Shown: positions 8,361-41,424 of the stretch, one piece after another
Layout: every line of letters begins with the position of its first letter
Position numbering within the stretch: position 1 is the stretch's first letter
From: Reichenbachiella agarivorans
Lineage (GTDB): Bacteria; Bacteroidota; Bacteroidia; Cytophagales; Cyclobacteriaceae
Direction: 5' to 3'
NCBI RefSeq assembly: GCF_025502585.1
Contig: NZ_CP106679.1
Location: forward strand, 3,813,501-3,877,500
DNA length: 64,000 bases
Made by a program: the position numbers and the translations under genes
Notes under the pieces: generated by a model
Seen by the model: only the letters and a program-made list of their open reading frames with translations
Told to the model about the DNA's origin: nothing
Database searches by the model: none

Positions 8361-8447
8361 TCAAGAACCAATACAATCAATCTTGAATCTTGGTTCTTGA
8401 ATCTTGGTTCTTGAATCTTGGTTCTTGAATCTTGGTTCTTGAATCTA
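8361..8447. repeat. 14-bp tandem repeat forming a hairpin with its left edge
   Basis: The unit TCTTGAATCTTGGT starts at 8381, 8395, 8409, 8423 and (partial) 8437. TCAAGAACCA at 8361-8370 is the reverse complement of TGGTTCTTGA found in each repeat junction, so a hairpin can form. It lies between two convergent genes and may act as a bidirectional terminator, or belong to the word-repeat class seen elsewhere in this window. Confidence 0.85.
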
Positions 8448-32845: not shown

Positions 32846-32866
32846 AATTCTTTGATGGGTTAATTG

Positions 32867-33259
32867 TGGAGCCGGAGGGAATCGAACCCTCGTCCAGATA
32901 AGGTCATATTGGACCCTCTACATGCTTAGTTGTCACTTGGTGTCTCGTAGGAGGGCTGGTGGACAACAACCTACCTTTCCTACCAGTTACTTTAGCTTCG
33001 CTATCGGTTAGCAACTTTGCCTCAAGCTAGTCTTGCGATATGACACCTCTTGATCCTGCTTGCAAGACGAAAGCCTGGAGAGATGTGTCTGTCCCGATTC
33101 TTAACCGGGATTAATAATCTTAGCTATCAGCTAAAATTAAGCAGCCATGGCGTAATTAGATTCGCCAAATATAGTTTGAGTAAATTGATCACGTGTGTTT
33201 ACTCACCACCCGACATGCAAGCACAATATTCACACTTACTGTCAATACCGGTCGGCCCC
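32867..33259 (-). ncRNA. ssrA: Transfer-messenger RNA (tmRNA)
   Basis: 393 nt. The 5' end GGGGCCG pairs with CGGCTCC near the 3' end (7 bp, one G-U), followed by discriminator A; CCA is not encoded (CAA follows). The T-arm GGGTTCGATTCCC is present. The tag reading frame (33137-33166) encodes GESNYAMAA then TAA, close to tags of other Bacteroidota. tmRNA with SmpB rescues stalled ribosomes and tags the nascent peptide for proteolysis. After the tag the sequence contains several stems, including AATCCCGGTTAAGAATCGGGA, as expected for the pseudoknot region. Confidence 0.95.
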
Positions 33260-35535: not shown

Positions 35536-35540
35536 CGACC

Positions 35541-35660
35541 ACTTATCGAGAAAGACCGAGGGACAGGGCCCGAAGACGTCTTGGCAACCTATCCATAGCC
35601 GCAATATTGGATGTTGTGCCAACTCCCTTTCTGTACTTTTCAGGTACACAGATAAAGATA
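35541..35660 (+). promoter_or_regulatory. SAM-I (S-box) riboswitch
   Basis: Recognisable S-box elements in order: P1 5' side ACTTATC with GAGAAAGACCGAGGGACAGG, GGGCCCGAAGACG, the conserved TTGGCAACC, TGTGCCAACTCCC, and the closing 3' side CAGATAAAG. It binds S-adenosylmethionine and represses methionine genes. It sits between the promoter and metH, with about 50 nt left before the ATG. No terminator stem with a T-run is evident in that 50 nt, so translational control is possible. Confidence 0.92.
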
Positions 35661-35707
35661 GGTAATCGACGAAATTCTTTCTGGGTAAGTAGTTTAATAC
35701 TATAGAT

Positions 35708-36718
35708 ATGAACATTAGAGATATTCTAAAAGATAGAATATTGGTATTGGATGGAGCCATGGGGACCATGATCCAACGCTATCAATTGCAAGAAGAGGAC
35801 TTTAGAAATGAAGAATTGAAAAACCATGATGTACCGCTAAAGGGCAACAACGACTTACTCTCAGTCACCAAACCAGAAGTCATCAAAGCAATCCATGCCG
35901 CCTACTTCGAAGCAGGTGCAGACATCGTAGAGACAAACACCTTTGGCAGTACCTGGGTAGCACAAGCGGATTACAAACTGGAGGATTGGGTCTATCGAAT
36001 CAATTTTGAATCTGCTAAAATCGCCAGAGAAGTAGCAGACGAATTCACCGCCAAAGAACCCAACAAACCAAGGTTTGTAGCAGGCTCCATGGGGCCAACT
36101 AACCGACTGGCATCCATGTCTCCGGATGTAAACAATCCTGGATACAGAGCCATCACCTATGACCAGCTTTTGGAGGCGTTCAAGGAGCAAGCCAAGGCCC
36201 TATTAGATGGCGGAGCAGATTTGCTGTTGGTAGAGACCATCACCGATACACTGAACTCCAAAGCCGCACTCATGGCTATCGATCAGATCGCTGAAGAACG
36301 AGGCATCCAGATTCCGATCATGGTATCAGGCACCATTACAGATGCCAGTGGCAGAATCCTATCAGGACAAAACACGGAGGCATTTTTGATCTCGGTTTCC
36401 CACTTGGATCTGTTGAGCATCGGTTTGAACTGTGCCTTAGGTGCAAGGGAATTAAAACCCTACTTGGCTACACTGTCCAATAAATCTAATTTCAACATCT
36501 CTGCACACCCAAATGCTGGTCTACCCAACGAGTTTGGACAATACGATGAGACTCCAGAAGACATGGTCAGTCAAATCAAAGAATTCCTAGACGATGGCTT
36601 GATCAACATCATCGGCGGATGCTGTGGCACAACCCCCGATCACATCAAAGCAATTGCCGAGCTAGCAGCGAAGTATGAGCCGAGGGAAGTAAACAGTCGA
36701 CAGTCGACAGTCAACTGA
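35708..36718 (+). CDS. metH: Methionine synthase, homocysteine-binding half
   Basis: 336 residues, matching only the N-terminal homocysteine S-methyltransferase domain of cobalamin-dependent methionine synthase (MetH, about 1,200 residues when in one piece). Starts LVLDGAMGTMIQRYQL; zinc-ligand Cys lie in GLNCALG (about 241) and GGCCGTTP (about 301-302). It works with the separate C-terminal half at 37138. A split metH is common in Bacteroidota. Odd point: the final residues EVNSRQSTVN and the TGA stop are encoded by the GTCGACAGT repeat that flanks the next small gene, so the native C-terminus has been replaced or extended by repeat sequence. Confidence 0.93.
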   Translation: MNIRDILKDRILVLDGAMGTMIQRYQLQEEDFRNEELKNHDVPLKGNNDLLSVTKPEVIKAIHAAYFEAGADIVETNTFGSTWVAQADYKLEDWVYRINFESAKIAREVADEFTAKEPNKPRFVAGSMGPTNRLASMSPDVNNPGYRAITYDQLLEAFKEQAKALLDGGADLLLVETITDTLNSKAALMAIDQIAEERGIQIPIMVSGTITDASGRILSGQNTEAFLISVSHLDLLSIGLNCALGARELKPYLATLSNKSNFNISAHPNAGLPNEFGQYDETPEDMVSQIKEFLDDGLINIIGGCCGTTPDHIKAIAELAAKYEPREVNSRQSTVN

Positions 36719-37121
36719 TGATCTATTTCCAAAAATAGTTGAGATGGGATTCAAATTTGAGAATTTAAAAGTTTGGCAAGACGCTATCAATTTGTCCAGC
36801 GAAGTTCATTTAATGACTTTGACATGGACAAAAGAAGAGCGTTACATTCTAACTTCTCAAATCAAAAGAGCATCAGACTCTATCTCATTGAATATTTCAG
36901 AAGGGAGTACTGGACAATCTAATGCTGAGTTTATTCGCTTTTTGAGGTATGCAAACAGATCTGCTCTTGAAGTAATCACTTGCTTATATCTTGCTAAAAA
37001 CAGAGATTTGATCCATGAAGACCAATTCAAATCTTTGTATGATCAAACCGAAACGCTTGTCATAAAAATTCAAGCACTTATTAAATCAATGAATCAAAAC
37101 AGTTGACAGAAAACTGTCGAC
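36696..37121. repeat. Inverted-repeat-bounded cassette containing a four-helix-bundle gene
   Basis: Left arm 36696-36717 (GTCGACAGTCGACAGTCAACTG... read 5' to 3', limited here to its first words) and right arm 37100-37121 (CAGTTGACAG...CTGTCGAC) are inverted relative to each other, 18 of 22 positions pairing. They enclose the whole small gene at 36744-37106. The left arm encodes the end of the metH N-terminal gene; the right arm encodes the end of the small gene (QNS-stop). GTCGAC words continue a few bases beyond on the right (CCGTAGAC). Confidence 0.85.
36744..37106 (+). CDS. Four-helix-bundle protein (S23 / 23S rRNA intervening-sequence family)
   Basis: 120 residues, the usual size. Family hallmarks: [20 protein letters not shown] at the N-terminus, [21 protein letters not shown] (about 37-57), [26 protein letters not shown] (about 61-86) and a last helix [15 protein letters not shown]. 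Members occur inside intervening sequences of 23S rRNA genes and resemble the Avd subunit of diversity-generating retroelements; the molecular role is unknown, possibly RNA binding. It is inserted between the two metH halves, in the same direction, inside inverted repeats. It is probably translated from the met operon mRNA. Confidence 0.92.
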
Positions 37122-37137
37122 CGTAGACTATAAAACT

Positions 37138-39864
37138 ATGGACTATATCATTCATCCAGACTACCCAGGCAAGTACAAATACAAGTGGCATGATTATGAG
37201 CCGATGAAGCTCAGCGGTTTGGAGCCTCTTGTTGTGACGCCAGATTTGAACTTCATCAATGTAGGTGAGCGAACCAACGTGACTGGTTCTAGGATGTTCC
37301 TAAGATTGATCAAAGAAGAGAAGTTTGAAGAAGCCCTCGCTGTAGCCCGCAACCAAGTCGAAGGTGGCGCACAGATCATCGATGTAAACATGGACGAAGG
37401 GATGCTAGATGGTGCTGAGACCATGACCAACTTCCTACACCTGATGGCCTCAGAACCAGACATTGCCCGAATCCCCGTCATGATCGACTCCTCCAAGTGG
37501 GAAATCATCGAGGCAGGTCTCAAGTGTACACAAGGCAAGTCTGTAGTCAACTCCATCAGTCTCAAGGTCGGTGAGGAAGAATTTATCCGTCAGGCCAAAC
37601 TCGTCAAGCAATATGGTGCAGCAGTGATCGTGATGGCCTTTGACGAAGAGGGTCAGGCAGACAACTACGAACGCAGAGTAGAAATTGTCAAGCGTTCGTA
37701 TGAGCTGATGGTCGGACCCAAAATCAATTTCAAGCCACAAGACATTATTTTCGATCTCAATATCTTCCCTGTTGCGACTGGGATGGAAGAGCATCGCAAA
37801 AATGCTTTGGACTTCTTCAAAGCCACTCGTTGGGTAAGAGAAAATCTACCCGCAGCGCATGTAAGTGGCGGTGTGAGCAATGTTTCATTTTCATTCAGAG
37901 GCAATGACCCGGTCAGAGAAGCCATGCACTCTGCCTTTCTCTACCATGCCATCGGTCAAGGCATGGACATGGGTATCGTCAATCCAGCCATGTTGGAAGT
38001 GTACGACGACATCCCAAAAGACCTTTTGGAACATGTAGAAGATGTGCTCTTGGATCGTCGAGATGACGCCACGGAGCGCTTGTTGGACTTTGCCGAATCC
38101 TTCGTAGGAGAAGGCAAGGCTGAAAAGAAAACAGACGAATGGCGCCAATTGCCAGTCGAAAAAAGAATCGAACACGCACTGGTCAAAGGAATCGTAGAAT
38201 TCATAGATGCAGACACTGAAGAAGTCCGTCAAAAGGTAGACAGGCCTCTGCATGTCATCGAGGGACCACTCATGGACGGCATGAATGTCGTCGGAGACTT
38301 GTTTGGAGAAGGAAAAATGTTCTTACCACAAGTCGTAAAGAGTGCACGCGTGATGAAAAAAGCCGTGGCTTACCTCATGCCATTTCTAGAAGCTGACAAG
38401 GTAGAGGGCGATGCACAAAATGCAGGGACTGTTCTGCTCGCTACTGTCAAAGGTGACGTGCATGACATTGGCAAAAACATCGTAGGGGTCGTCATGGCCT
38501 GCAACAACTATGAAATCGTCGATATGGGTGTCATGGTACCCAACGAAAAGATCTTGGCGAAAGCCAAAGAAATCAATGCTGACATCATAGGACTCAGTGG
38601 GTTGATCACGCCATCACTGGACGAGATGGTAGATTTTGCCAAGCTATTGGAGAAAGACGGTGCTAAGTACCCCCTACTCATCGGCGGGGCTACTACTTCG
38701 AGAATCCATACAGCAGTCAAGATAGACCCTTGCTACAGTGGTCCCGTTGTACACGTACTGGATGCATCTCGAAGCGTACCTGTGGCTGGTGATTTGTTGA
38801 ACCAAAACAAAGAAGCCTTTGTCAACAAGACCAAGCAAGAATACCTCGAAGCAAGAGAAAATCATGCGGGGAGAACCAAAGACAAGAACTACATCAAATT
38901 TGAAGAGGCAAAAGCCAATAAGTTTGAATTGAACTGGGCAGAGGAAAACATCATCCAACCCAAATTCATCGGCAACAAAACTTTCAACAATTTCCCTCTG
39001 GAGGAAATCAGAAAGTTCATTGACTGGACACCCTTTTTCCAGACATGGATGCTCAAAGGCAAATTCCCGAAAATATTGCAAGATGAAGTGATCGGCATGG
39101 AAGCCACCAAACTCTACAATGACGCCAACAAAATGCTGGATGACGTCATCGCCAAGAGAAGCCTACAAGCCAATGCTGTCATAGGCATCTACCAAGCCAA
39201 CAATGTCAACGGCGAAGATGTATCGGTATCTGATGCCTCGGGACGAGACTTGGCGACCTTCCATTTTTTGCGTCAGCAGGGCAAAAAGGGCAAAAACATC
39301 CCGAATCTCTCCTTGGCGGATTTCATCGCACCAAAGGAAAGCGGCAGACAAGACTACATGGGTGGGTTTGCAGTCACCGCAGGTATTGGGATCGAAAAAT
39401 TGATCGAAAAGTATGACAAGGATCATGACGACTACAACTCCATCATGATCAAGGCACTGGCAGATCGTCTGGCAGAGGCATTTGCAGAGCTCATGCACCT
39501 CAAAGTCCGCAAGGAACTATGGGGCTATGCAGCAGACGAAACTCTAGAAAATGACGCATTGATTTCGGAGAAATACAAAGGTATCCGACCTGCACCAGGC
39601 TATCCAGCTTGTCCAGACCATACAGAGAAACCGATTCTGTTCAAATTGTTGAATGTCGAAAAGGAAACGGGGATCATCTTGACAGAATCTAATGCGATGT
39701 ATCCTGCGTCATCCGTCAGTGGCTTCTATTTCGCCAACGAGAATTCCAAATATTTTGGCTTGGGTAAAATAGACAAAGATCAAGTAGAGGACTATGCAGA
39801 GAGAAAAGGCATGACCCTCGAACTAGCAGAAAAATGGTTGTCGCCTAATTTGGCTTATAACTAG
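37138..39864 (+). CDS. metH: Methionine synthase, folate/cobalamin/activation half
   Basis: 908 residues, the rest of MetH. Domain order: pterin-binding domain ([20 protein letters not shown] at about 41, [40 protein letters not shown]); cobalamin cap and B12-binding domain ([17 protein letters not shown] at about 438, providing the DxHxxG lower ligand; [21 protein letters not shown]); and the AdoMet-dependent activation domain ([15 protein letters not shown] at about 816). It takes methyl from 5-methyltetrahydrofolate via cobalamin to homocysteine bound by the N-terminal half. Its TAG stop lies in the first CTAGTT word of the following repeat. Confidence 0.95.
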
Positions 39865-39972
39865 TTGACTGGTTTTCTAGTTGGCTAGTTTAGTTAACTA
39901 GTTAAACCAGAAAACCAGCCAAACCAGCCAAACCAGAAAACTAGAAAACTAGAAAACCAGCCAAACCAAAAA
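39861..39972. repeat. Word repeat left of the second four-helix-bundle gene
   Basis: About 110 bp composed almost only of CTAGTT/CTGGTT words on the left and their complements AACTAG/AACCAG on the right around a centre TTAGTTAACTAGTTAAACCAG, so it folds on itself. The same centre occurs in the right-hand repeat (40337-40463), in direct orientation. Confidence 0.92.
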
Positions 39973-39974
39973 CA

Positions 39975-40338
39975 ATGAGTACAGTAAAGAGATTTGAAGA
40001 TTTAGATTCATGGAAAGAAGCAAGGGTATTTGTGAAGAGCATCTATCTATTCTTGGAATCAAATCACAGAATCGACAGAGATACTCAGAGTCAGCTCAGG
40101 CGAGCGGCCTTATCTATCATGAATAATATAGCAGAAGGCTTTGGAAGAAATGGAAACAAAGAGTTTATTAGATTCTTGAATATTGCGAGTGCATCAGCTG
40201 CCGAGGTGAAGAGTATTATGTATGTCATACAGGATTTAAATTACATACAGGAAGATACAGTACAAAAAATACCACGAACAGCTTGATAAAATAAGGAAAC
40301 TGATTCACGGCATGATCCGATACCTTAATACTATTTAG
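39975..40338 (+). pseudogene. Frameshifted four-helix-bundle (S23-type) gene
   Basis: The frame from ATG 39975 encodes a clear family member (VKRFEDLDSWKEARVFVKSI, LRRAALSIMNNIAEGF, KEFIRFLNIASASAAEVKSI) but ends early at 40286 with the unrelated tail VQKIPRTA. Reading from TAC at 40261 in another frame gives YKKYHEQLDKIRKLIHGMI, then RYLNTI and stop at 40338, the usual last helix. A one-base insertion (or two-base loss) near 40255-40262, beside an A6 run, therefore breaks the gene. It could be a pseudogene, or be rescued by programmed slippage at CAAAAAAT. It lies between metH and metF within word repeats. Confidence 0.85.
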
Positions 40339-40463
40339 TTCTCTAGTTTACTGGTTCTCTAGTTAACTAGTTAAACCAGTAAACCAGCAAACCAGAGAAC
40401 CAGCAAACCAGAAAACCAGAAAACTAGAAAACCAGTTAAACCAGCCAAACCAGTAAACCAGAA
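40337..40463. repeat. Word repeat right of the second four-helix-bundle gene
   Basis: About 125 bp of the same CTAGTT/CTGGTT and AACCAG/AACTAG words, with the centre AGTTAACTAGTTAAACCAG shared with 39861-39972. It begins at the restored stop codon of the broken gene and ends 5 bp before metF. Confidence 0.92.
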
Positions 40464-40467
40464 AAAA

Positions 40468-41424
40468 ATGAAGGTTACCGAACATATACAAAACGCCAAA
40501 GGCAAAACACTTTTTTCACTGGAGATCATCCCACCGAAAAAGGGCGAGAAAATCCAAACCATTTTTGATCACTTGGACCCTTTGATGGAGTTTAACCCTC
40601 CCTTTATAGACGTCACCTACCATAGAGAAGAGTACATCTACAAAGAACACCCTAGTGGGCTGTTAGAGAAAAAAACGACTCGCAAGAGACCAGGTACTGT
40701 TGGGATATGTGCTGCGATCAGGCATCGCTATGATGTCGATCCTGTGCCCCACATTATTTGTGGTGGATTCTCCAAAGAAGAAACGGAGAATGCACTCATT
40801 GACTTGAACTTCTTAGGTATAGACAATGTGCTAGTACTGCGAGGTGACGCCATCAAGTCAGAGGGTTCATTCGTACCGCATCCAGAAGGCAACAACTATG
40901 CACTTGACCTCTTGCACCAAGTAGATGGTCTCAACAAAGGAATCTACCTAGACGATAGTATCGACAAGCCAAGCCCAACCAGCTTCTGTATTGGAGTGGC
41001 AGGCTACCCCGAAAAGCACTTCGAAGCGCCCAACATCAAGATGGATCTCAAATACCTGAAACAAAAAGTGGATGCTGGAGCAGAGTACATTGTCACTCAG
41101 ATGTTCTTTGACAACAGCAAATACTTCGAGTTCGTAGAGAGCTGCCGTGCCATGGACATCCATGTGCCGATCATTCCAGGGTTGAAACCCATCGCAACCA
41201 AAGCCCAGTCTACGATCCTTCCGAGCATCTTCCACATCGACCTACCCGAAGAACTCGGTGAGGCACTGGACAAATGCAAAGACAACCAACAAGCCAAAGA
41301 AATCGGTATCGAGTGGGGTATCAAGCAGTCCAAAGAATTGATGGAATGGGGTGTACCTGTCTTGCACTACTACTCTATGGGTAAGTCCACCAGCGTACAA
41401 AAGATCGCTGAGGCGGTGTTTTGA
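40468..41424 (+). CDS. metF: Methylenetetrahydrofolate reductase
   Basis: 318 residues. It reduces 5,10-methylene-THF to 5-methyl-THF, the methyl donor for MetH, using FAD. It shows FSLEIIPPKKGEKIQTIFDHLD near the N-terminus, FIDVTYHREE, NVLVLRGDAIKSEG, IGVAGYPEKHFEAPN and YIVTQMFFDNSKYFEF. Last gene of the SAM-riboswitch operon. Its start lies only 5 bp past the word repeat, so its ribosome-binding region is repeat-derived (AACCAGAAAAAAATG). Confidence 0.96.
   Translation: MKVTEHIQNAKGKTLFSLEIIPPKKGEKIQTIFDHLDPLMEFNPPFIDVTYHREEYIYKEHPSGLLEKKTTRKRPGTVGICAAIRHRYDVDPVPHIICGGFSKEETENALIDLNFLGIDNVLVLRGDAIKSEGSFVPHPEGNNYALDLLHQVDGLNKGIYLDDSIDKPSPTSFCIGVAGYPEKHFEAPNIKMDLKYLKQKVDAGAEYIVTQMFFDNSKYFEFVESCRAMDIHVPIIPGLKPIATKAQSTILPSIFHIDLPEELGEALDKCKDNQQAKEIGIEWGIKQSKELMEWGVPVLHYYSMGKSTSVQKIAEAVF

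Follow-up and report, generated by a model that had tools for sequence, protein, structure and literature searches.

The closest described systems to the element reported here are the intervening sequences (IVSs) of 23S rRNA genes that carry an S23 gene. According to the accessible text of PMC4990558, the 428-nt IVS of Coxiella is closed by a 28-bp end stem and excised by RNase III, and its S23p open reading frame (ORF) is preceded by tandem heptamers (GACAGAT) whose number depends on the strain. The same text, citing Lin 2006, describes the S23 protein of Xanthomonas as a homopentamer, and the available part of PMC10053308 treats the S23 family PF05635 as homologous to Avd. Heptanucleotide repeats are also on record: excerpts of the relevant papers describe them in P6b of the Nostoc trnL intron, where they pair into a hairpin (PMC3488679), as TAACTGA repeats (PMC4679880) and as the GGGAATC repeats of Xanthomonas (PMC4692102); by one account, most genomes have more heptamers than any other kind of long simple repeat (PMC4679880). 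In their accessible portions, PMC4679880 and PMC4692102 link such repeats neither to S23 nor to four-helix proteins, and the Coxiella IVS, as presented in the available text of PMC4990558, is the sole case of heptamers together with S23 that we found in the open-licence literature. That literature yielded no description of inverted heptads around operon S23 genes, an absence that is weak given this scope.

We consider it likely that positions ~36688-37150 of the window (the whole 64,000-nt stretch of the Reichenbachiella agarivorans genome analysed here) form an IVS-type S23 element that is resident in the mRNA of a protein-coding operon, with an S23 ORF between two inverted degenerate heptad arrays, lying sense-wise in the junction of two co-directional metabolic genes. 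We use the term 'IVS-type', rather than rRNA IVS, because the element is located between metH-N and metH-C. The operon is read from the forward strand, as are all features of it given here. Its leader holds a SAM riboswitch (35540..35664; Rfam RF00162, 60 bits, E 2.1e-11) upstream of metH-N, and since this riboswitch precedes the metH operon, the S23 elements of the operon should be under SAM control. The gene metH-N (35708..36718; PF02574, E 2.9e-98; positions 11-342 of PRK09490) encodes the homocysteine S-methyltransferase part of methionine synthase, and metH-C (37138..39864; PF00809, PF02607, PF02310 and PF02965) encodes the other domains. Between them, the 120-residue S23-type gene recognized in the earlier note is confirmed as an intact four-helix-bundle gene at 36744..37106 (PF05635, E 1.2e-32; TIGR02436, E 2.6e-31). 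Its 5' arm (36688..36717), a degenerate heptad array of the CAGTCGA type, overlaps the 3' end of metH-N, and the inverted partner of this array forms the 3' arm (37100..37129), whose related words continue to ~37150, past the metH-C start codon.

The inverted 22-nt arms that had been noticed previously are reproduced by our analysis: the best ungapped pair begins at 36696 and 37100 with 18 of 22 positions pairing, and arms extended to 30 nt (36688-36717 and 37100-37129) pair at 23 of 30. An inverted alignment of the two spacers scores 13, compared with 6.55 (sd 1.27) for 5000 dinucleotide shuffles (p 4e-4). The arms overlap the 3' ends of both genes, as had been stated, such that the 5' arm takes in the final metH-N codons and the first two bases of the metH-N stop (36716-36718), and the 3' arm holds the whole S23 stop (37104-37106). 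A feature beyond the earlier note is that both arms are degenerate heptad arrays, with a lag-7 match of 0.49 and 0.44 versus 0.13-0.25 at lags 5, 6, 8 and 9. The predicted fold of the RNA from 36688 to 37140 is closed by the arms at -119.2 kcal/mol, compared with -88.7 (sd 5.0) in 100 shuffles (z -6.1), a difference to which the ORF itself contributes part. The locus thus has an S23p-family ORF, complementary ends that close a predicted fold and tandem heptamers beside the ORF, as do S23-bearing rRNA IVSs (the heptamers being reported for that of Coxiella). Its position between metH-N and metH-C, rather than within an rRNA gene, departs from them and counts against our reading.

The second copy reported 3 kb downstream is real, although the reading frame is disrupted towards its 3' end and the repeat unit of its arms is 8 nt long, not 7. 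Its 5' array (39862..39973), made of AACCAG and CTAGTT words with period 8, is followed by the S23 gene (39975..40286; PF05635, E 1.8e-28), of which a leftover family-like tail sits in a different frame, and then by a 3' array (40338..40467) that extends to the start of metF (40468..41424; methylenetetrahydrofolate reductase; TIGR00676, 302.8 bits, above the cut-off). Elsewhere in the window, a solo heptad array or hairpin without S23 lies between convergent ORFs (8372..8447, no strand assigned); it is composed of TTGAATC/TTGGTTC heptads and has a short inverted partner upstream. A tmRNA gene (RF00023) lies at 32864-33259 on the reverse strand. We also considered whether the S23 insertion had split metH and rejected this idea; the split and the insertion are separate events. 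Many of the 30 metH junctions that we fetched are split by a short spacer and have no S23 (e.g. G045, G013, G015, G018 and G027), and metH is unsplit in four of them (G020, G010, G050 and G034).

Seven PF05635 matches in this genome correspond to six S23 genes because one gene is split by a frameshift. These genes occupy the junctions metH-N/metH-C, metH-C/metF, fadB-like/thiolase, sucB/lpd, leuC/leuD and sufB/sufC, and at all six the S23 gene is co-directional with its neighbours and inverted word arrays are present. As read by eye, the words differ by locus: CAGTCGA, AACCAG/CTAGTT, TTAGACT, AGTATTG, ACGCTAA and AATTTGAGA. Inverted arms are significant at every one of the six copies (p 0.0033 to 0.0085, with hand-set ends for the suf copy) in a test that took in the last 30 nt of the S23 gene, since the 3' arm often begins within the gene. 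The copies at the metF and suf junctions are broken.

An enrichment of flanking inverted repeats around S23 genes, which had been proposed as a check, proves to be strong: inverted arms reach a shuffle p<0.05 at 190 of 249 S23 genes compared with 40 of 900 control genes. On recount, the figures were 188 of 249 genes and 80 of 110 clusters of 60% identity. The 249 genes, drawn from relatives, the phylum, named genomes and plasmids, are best HMM matches rather than a random sample, and orthologues count repeatedly; each has at least 85 codons and 200 nt of flank, truncated copies are excluded, and one locus (L397) was removed as a duplicate of another plasmid copy. Controls came from 60 background stretches of seven genomes, and 300 shuffles were used for S23 genes and 100 for controls. 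The 59 of 249 genes whose arms are not significant count against our explanation, as do a few non-S23 genes that have inverted heptads too. With a plain inverted score of at least 16, 45 of 96 and 79 of 114 S23 genes are positive versus 8 of 312 and 18 of 626 control genes, and one of the 8 positive controls is the window's own second S23 gene. Direct repeats at score 16 are also raised, albeit less so (15 of 96 and 19 of 114), which again counts against our reading, yet is expected because the arms are word arrays.

The periodicity of the flanks is itself distinctive, with matches at lags 7, 14 and 21 of 0.390, 0.364 and 0.347, compared with 0.29 in shuffles and 0.26-0.27 in the flanking genes at the same lags; for 114 further S23 genes the values are 0.416, 0.382 and 0.362. 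Of the 249 genes, 197 have a heptad run that exceeds the 95% shuffle level on one side or more, and 137 have such runs on both sides. Thirteen plasmid S23 genes, 12 of them cyanobacterial, have a lag-7 match of 0.47, with words such as GGGAGTA, GGGAACA and GGGTGTA, and inverted arms are significant at nine. PF05635 itself is present in 48 of 59 near-set genomes and 232 of 296 phylum-set genomes (own genome included). These data suggest that S23 genes in inverted heptads make up a class of very small resident genetic elements that is widespread but has received little recognition. Two divergent S23 relatives with very long branches, weak PF05635 scores and no arms (L150 in G004 and L128 in G001) possibly form a separate, Avd-like group.

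The operon-junction setting seen at metH recurs, and S23 genes mostly lie sense-wise within it: where both neighbours could be called, S23 shares its direction with the two of them in 79 of 90 and 98 of 111 cases and opposes the two of them in 6 and 5. The sum of 177 sense versus 11 antisense arrangements has p about 1e-39, a statistic that ignores shared ancestry, and the strand counts leave out 6 of 96 and 3 of 114 genes whose neighbour was too short. Three cyanobacterial plasmid S23 genes are antisense to both neighbours. In a tree of 96 S23 genes (120 columns; 28 of 93 inner branches open), copies at the same junction tend to form groups that span genera; the pattern is clear for metH-C/metF, sufB/sufC, leuC/leuD and a sulfate-adenylyltransferase-like junction, and weaker for fadB/thiolase and sucB/lpd. 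Four of the 30 fetched metH junctions carry S23 (that of our genome, G003, G052 and G021), each with its own word pair. The earlier note had named met-operon S23 genes at the same place without flanking repeats as evidence that would speak against it, and the three other S23-bearing metH junctions all have inverted words.

At the metH junctions of two further genomes (G001 and G002), the S23 3' end and its arm alone remain (78% over 73 nt and 80% over 65 nt, both 2e-13), and a third (G004) has weaker arm remnants. Other junctions are empty, namely metH in G006, which has a short clean spacer, and thiolase in G001 and G005, although divergence hides the seam. In G004, the lpd junction lacks S23 and contains inverted words that form a hairpin, which, together with the metH scars, implies that internal deletion yields solo arrays. 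Given the tendency of S23 genes to group by junction in the tree and the deletion scars left in relatives, we regard the metH copy as an old resident rather than a recent arrival, and these comparisons show long residence of S23 elements at fixed junctions and their loss by internal deletion. They also show a paired turnover of the arms: among 58 elements, arm likeness is 0.374 within an element, 0.316 for the same arm at the same junction in another species and 0.190 between different junctions, and since likeness within an element exceeds that between species at the same junction, the two arms turn over together. At the G052 metH junction (L044), the 3' arm and its flank are tandemly duplicated after S23, and the metH-C of this genome is 84% identical to our own even though the genome is labelled as another family.

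Two loci on Nostocales plasmids (L395 and L396) share an ungapped 418-bp block, 81% identical, that starts 38 nt upstream of the S23 gene and ends 14 nt downstream of it; outside the block there are short word-array matches only, and the sites are unrelated. A second pair (L280 and L298) is 78% identical over 442 bp, starting 19 nt upstream of the gene and ending 57-66 nt downstream, with one arm word type. These two copies are at different junctions beside the same fadB-like gene, and the S23 gene and 3' side are common to both. Judged by sequence comparison, the class thus shows a property of mobile elements, one unit with defined ends at unrelated sites, in one clear and one partial pair. 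The evidence for movement concerns the class and not the metH copy itself, which is an old resident. Purifying selection on the S23 protein is evident from the 36 of 82 pairs that were not saturated (median dN/dS 0.097, maximum 0.183). S23 proteins from two phyla, G123 (L328) and the Nostoc plasmid (L395), are 73% identical, which suggests transfer between phyla.

A direct connection with rRNA is provided by an Azospirillum plasmid (L399), where an S23 gene lies within an LSU rRNA gene (RF02541), the sole rRNA case among nine loci scanned. Its arms, tested by hand, score 26 (p 5e-4) and have lag-7 matches of 0.54 and 0.66; the automatic arm test, in which the start codon was placed inside the array, gave p 0.27. 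The suggestion that the metH insert is the same kind of element as the S23-bearing rRNA IVSs is therefore upheld by a shared anatomy that includes heptad arms within rRNA.

Heptanucleotide repeats of cyanobacteria are reportedly known as STRR from the work of Mazel and Costa. Word arrays without S23 are present in the genome studied here. Across 464 kb of it we found five lag-7 arrays outside S23 loci, of which two look like plain hairpins by eye, alongside seven arrays at lag 8, seven at lag 12 and nine at lag 14. Period 7 is therefore no outlier across these 464 kb, whereas it is an outlier at S23 flanks. Words of S23 arms also recur: GTATTGAG, with one mismatch allowed, occurs at 13 places and AACCAG at seven, one of each being at S23, with 24 and 19 matches versus 0 and 3 for the reversed patterns. 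Arrays with the same words and no S23 thus outnumber S23 elements in this genome, which counts against our explanation and implies that arrays could predate the element or be a more general feature of genomes. The arrays thus extend more widely than the element, either as its debris or as a separate process that the element uses. There were no lag-7 arrays in 400 kb of three S23-free genomes, compared with seven in 800 kb of four S23-bearing genomes. Pairing across other genes is seen for some of the arrays that have no S23. A gene of 333 aa that bears no likeness to S23 (L405 and L407; G000:C1, about 2557489-2558612), which we take to be a putative DHH-type phosphoesterase, lies between two inverted mixed word arrays. 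A 452-aa ORF (L197, 582-2075) is flanked by inverted heptads (score 21), and a solo hairpin follows it.

What keeps the arms alike can be addressed through their mismatches, because RNA pairing as the keeper should make G·U exceed A·C on the sense strand. No G·U excess appears in 134 alignments (161 G·U vs 209 A·C, binomial p 0.014 towards A·C), and other alignment sets gave 181 vs 246 in 160 and 83 vs 100 in 59; the observed ratio of 0.77 is near the 0.82 predicted by base composition. Selection on the sense RNA, either for an RNase III stem or for cistron insulation, would suit the predicted fold closed by the arms, the arm duplex energy of -36.9 with own versus -26.1 with swapped flanks, the sense bias and the RNase III excision of rRNA cases described in the accessible text of PMC4990558. 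However, the pair counts differ from the 16 G·U vs 8 A·C of 52 terminator-like hairpins (a weak control), and the antisense arm duplex is no less stable, indeed slightly more so (121 vs 87 elements, p 0.049), which makes such selection rather unlikely. Because the arms have no G·U excess, RNA pairing is not visibly what selection keeps. The earlier proposal that the element may fold out of the met mRNA agrees with the predicted fold, whereas RNA-level selection on the arms is unsupported. The mismatches and the duplex stabilities together favour DNA-level processes, and what maintains the likeness of the arms is probably copying from arm to arm and slippage in 7-nt steps. RNA folding may be a consequence that is still able to render the insert harmless. 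It is also conceivable that S23 is an ordinary, vertically inherited host gene, that the arrays are neutral slippage repeats gathering in junction spacers and that the inverted pairing is a by-product of template switching. Clustering by junction, a dN/dS of about 0.1, solo arrays elsewhere and the stated commonness of heptamers in the available part of PMC4679880 all agree with such a history, which we nevertheless judge to be unlikely given the excess of inverted arms over controls, the S23 gene in rRNA, the unit with both arms at unrelated plasmid sites, and the patchy presence and internal deletion of the elements.

The protein suggests two other explanations. Its structure model (pLDDT 94.8) matches XCC0516 (2gsc, TM 0.93) and BT_0352 (2rld), and then Avd (4dwl, TM 0.79, E 0.08); in a sequence search against structures the first two are convincing, and two other rows are designed proteins with E above 0.005. 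A ring of S23 subunits might bind the heptads of its own arms, about one subunit per heptad, and so control the operon or its own RNA. The homopentamer of Xanthomonas, a median aligned arm of 31-35 nt (about five heptads) and the strand asymmetry of the flanks (AG-rich on the 5' side, 1317 vs 593 CT; CT-rich on the 3' side, 1075 vs 699 AG) fit this idea, although run lengths are widely spread (quartiles 24-50 and 22-53 nt) and there is no common binding site because words differ between loci, such that we find it very improbable. Alternatively, S23 could be a retroelement-like Avd-type part that assists a reverse transcriptase in trans, as the fold match, the reported homology of PF05635 to Avd and the sense bias might suggest. 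Reverse transcriptase (PF00078) is matched in 27 of 59 genomes, yet neither in our genome nor in eight relatives with six to nine S23 matches each (G002, G003, G007, G009, G013, G024, G030 and G045), and we consider this role very doubtful; as an obligate partner of S23, reverse transcriptase is unsupported in these S23-bearing genomes. S23 also lies between cas6 and cas4 on a Pseudanabaena plasmid (L348) and an Anabaena plasmid (L350), and this arrangement may explain why a figure legend of PMC10910872 carries a CRISPR-linked '23S rRNA IVP' label, as far as the available portion of that paper indicates.

Returning to the IVS-type element, we envisage by analogy with rRNA that the arms would pair in the transcript and loop out the S23 ORF, so that the flanking cistrons would stay usable, and that RNase III perhaps cuts the arms as it does in rRNA. 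The S23 protein, a pentamer in a solved relative, might bind the nucleic acid of the element and serve its spread or upkeep, and solo heptad arrays would in part be remains of S23 elements. The ends of these elements are free in sequence, keep their complementarity and change in steps of seven. As a tentative extension, which we hold to be possible rather than probable, S23 elements would constitute a class of bacterial mobile elements that reside in transcripts and whose ends, instead of having a fixed sequence, are set by two self-renewing arrays of 7-nt words that complement each other and are copied between arms. The rRNA IVSs would then be the branch of this class that is carried in rRNA, and its debris would account for much of the heptanucleotide repeat content that is so far unexplained in Bacteroidota and cyanobacteria and perhaps in Xanthomonas and Beggiatoaceae as well. 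If true, this would give a setting to a family of no known function that is present in 232 of 296 sampled genomes of the phylum. The intervening sequences of rRNA, heptanucleotide repeats and the S23 genes that stray into metabolic operons would no longer be three separate puzzles. This view makes testable whether the ends are kept alike by DNA copying or RNA selection, with or without S23 as the driver. It also serves as a warning that S23 in other operons, such as cas6-S23-cas4 on the two cyanobacterial plasmids, may be a passenger rather than a functional partner.

Compared with known systems, the elements resemble REPINs and MITEs in being short and dispersed, with inverted ends and existing solo hairpins, whereas they have a conserved protein gene inside and no end sequence common to copies; the single terminal repeat sequence of a classical transposon or MITE is lacking, as words differ at our six loci. 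They share degenerate, intergenic 7-nt tandem words with the STRR repeats of cyanobacteria and with the heptanucleotide repeats described in the accessible text on Nostoc P6b, TAACTGA and GGGAATC, although here the arrays are inverted pairs flanking a gene. With diversity-generating retroelements they share the protein fold of Avd, whereas our genome is without the reverse transcriptase that such elements have. The kind of element is thus already known, as the S23 intervening sequences, but its common home in this phylum appears to be operon junctions. Like the S23-bearing 23S rRNA IVSs of Coxiella (in the available description) and of the Azospirillum plasmid, the operon elements have an S23 ORF, a length of about 430 nt, complementary ends, heptamers adjacent to the ORF, a sense orientation in the transcript and a patchy presence. 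They differ from these IVSs in lying between protein-coding cistrons, as known here from DNA sequence, and in the fate of the S23 frame, which is under purifying selection in the operon elements and, according to the accessible text of PMC4990558, in decay in the Coxiella IVS.
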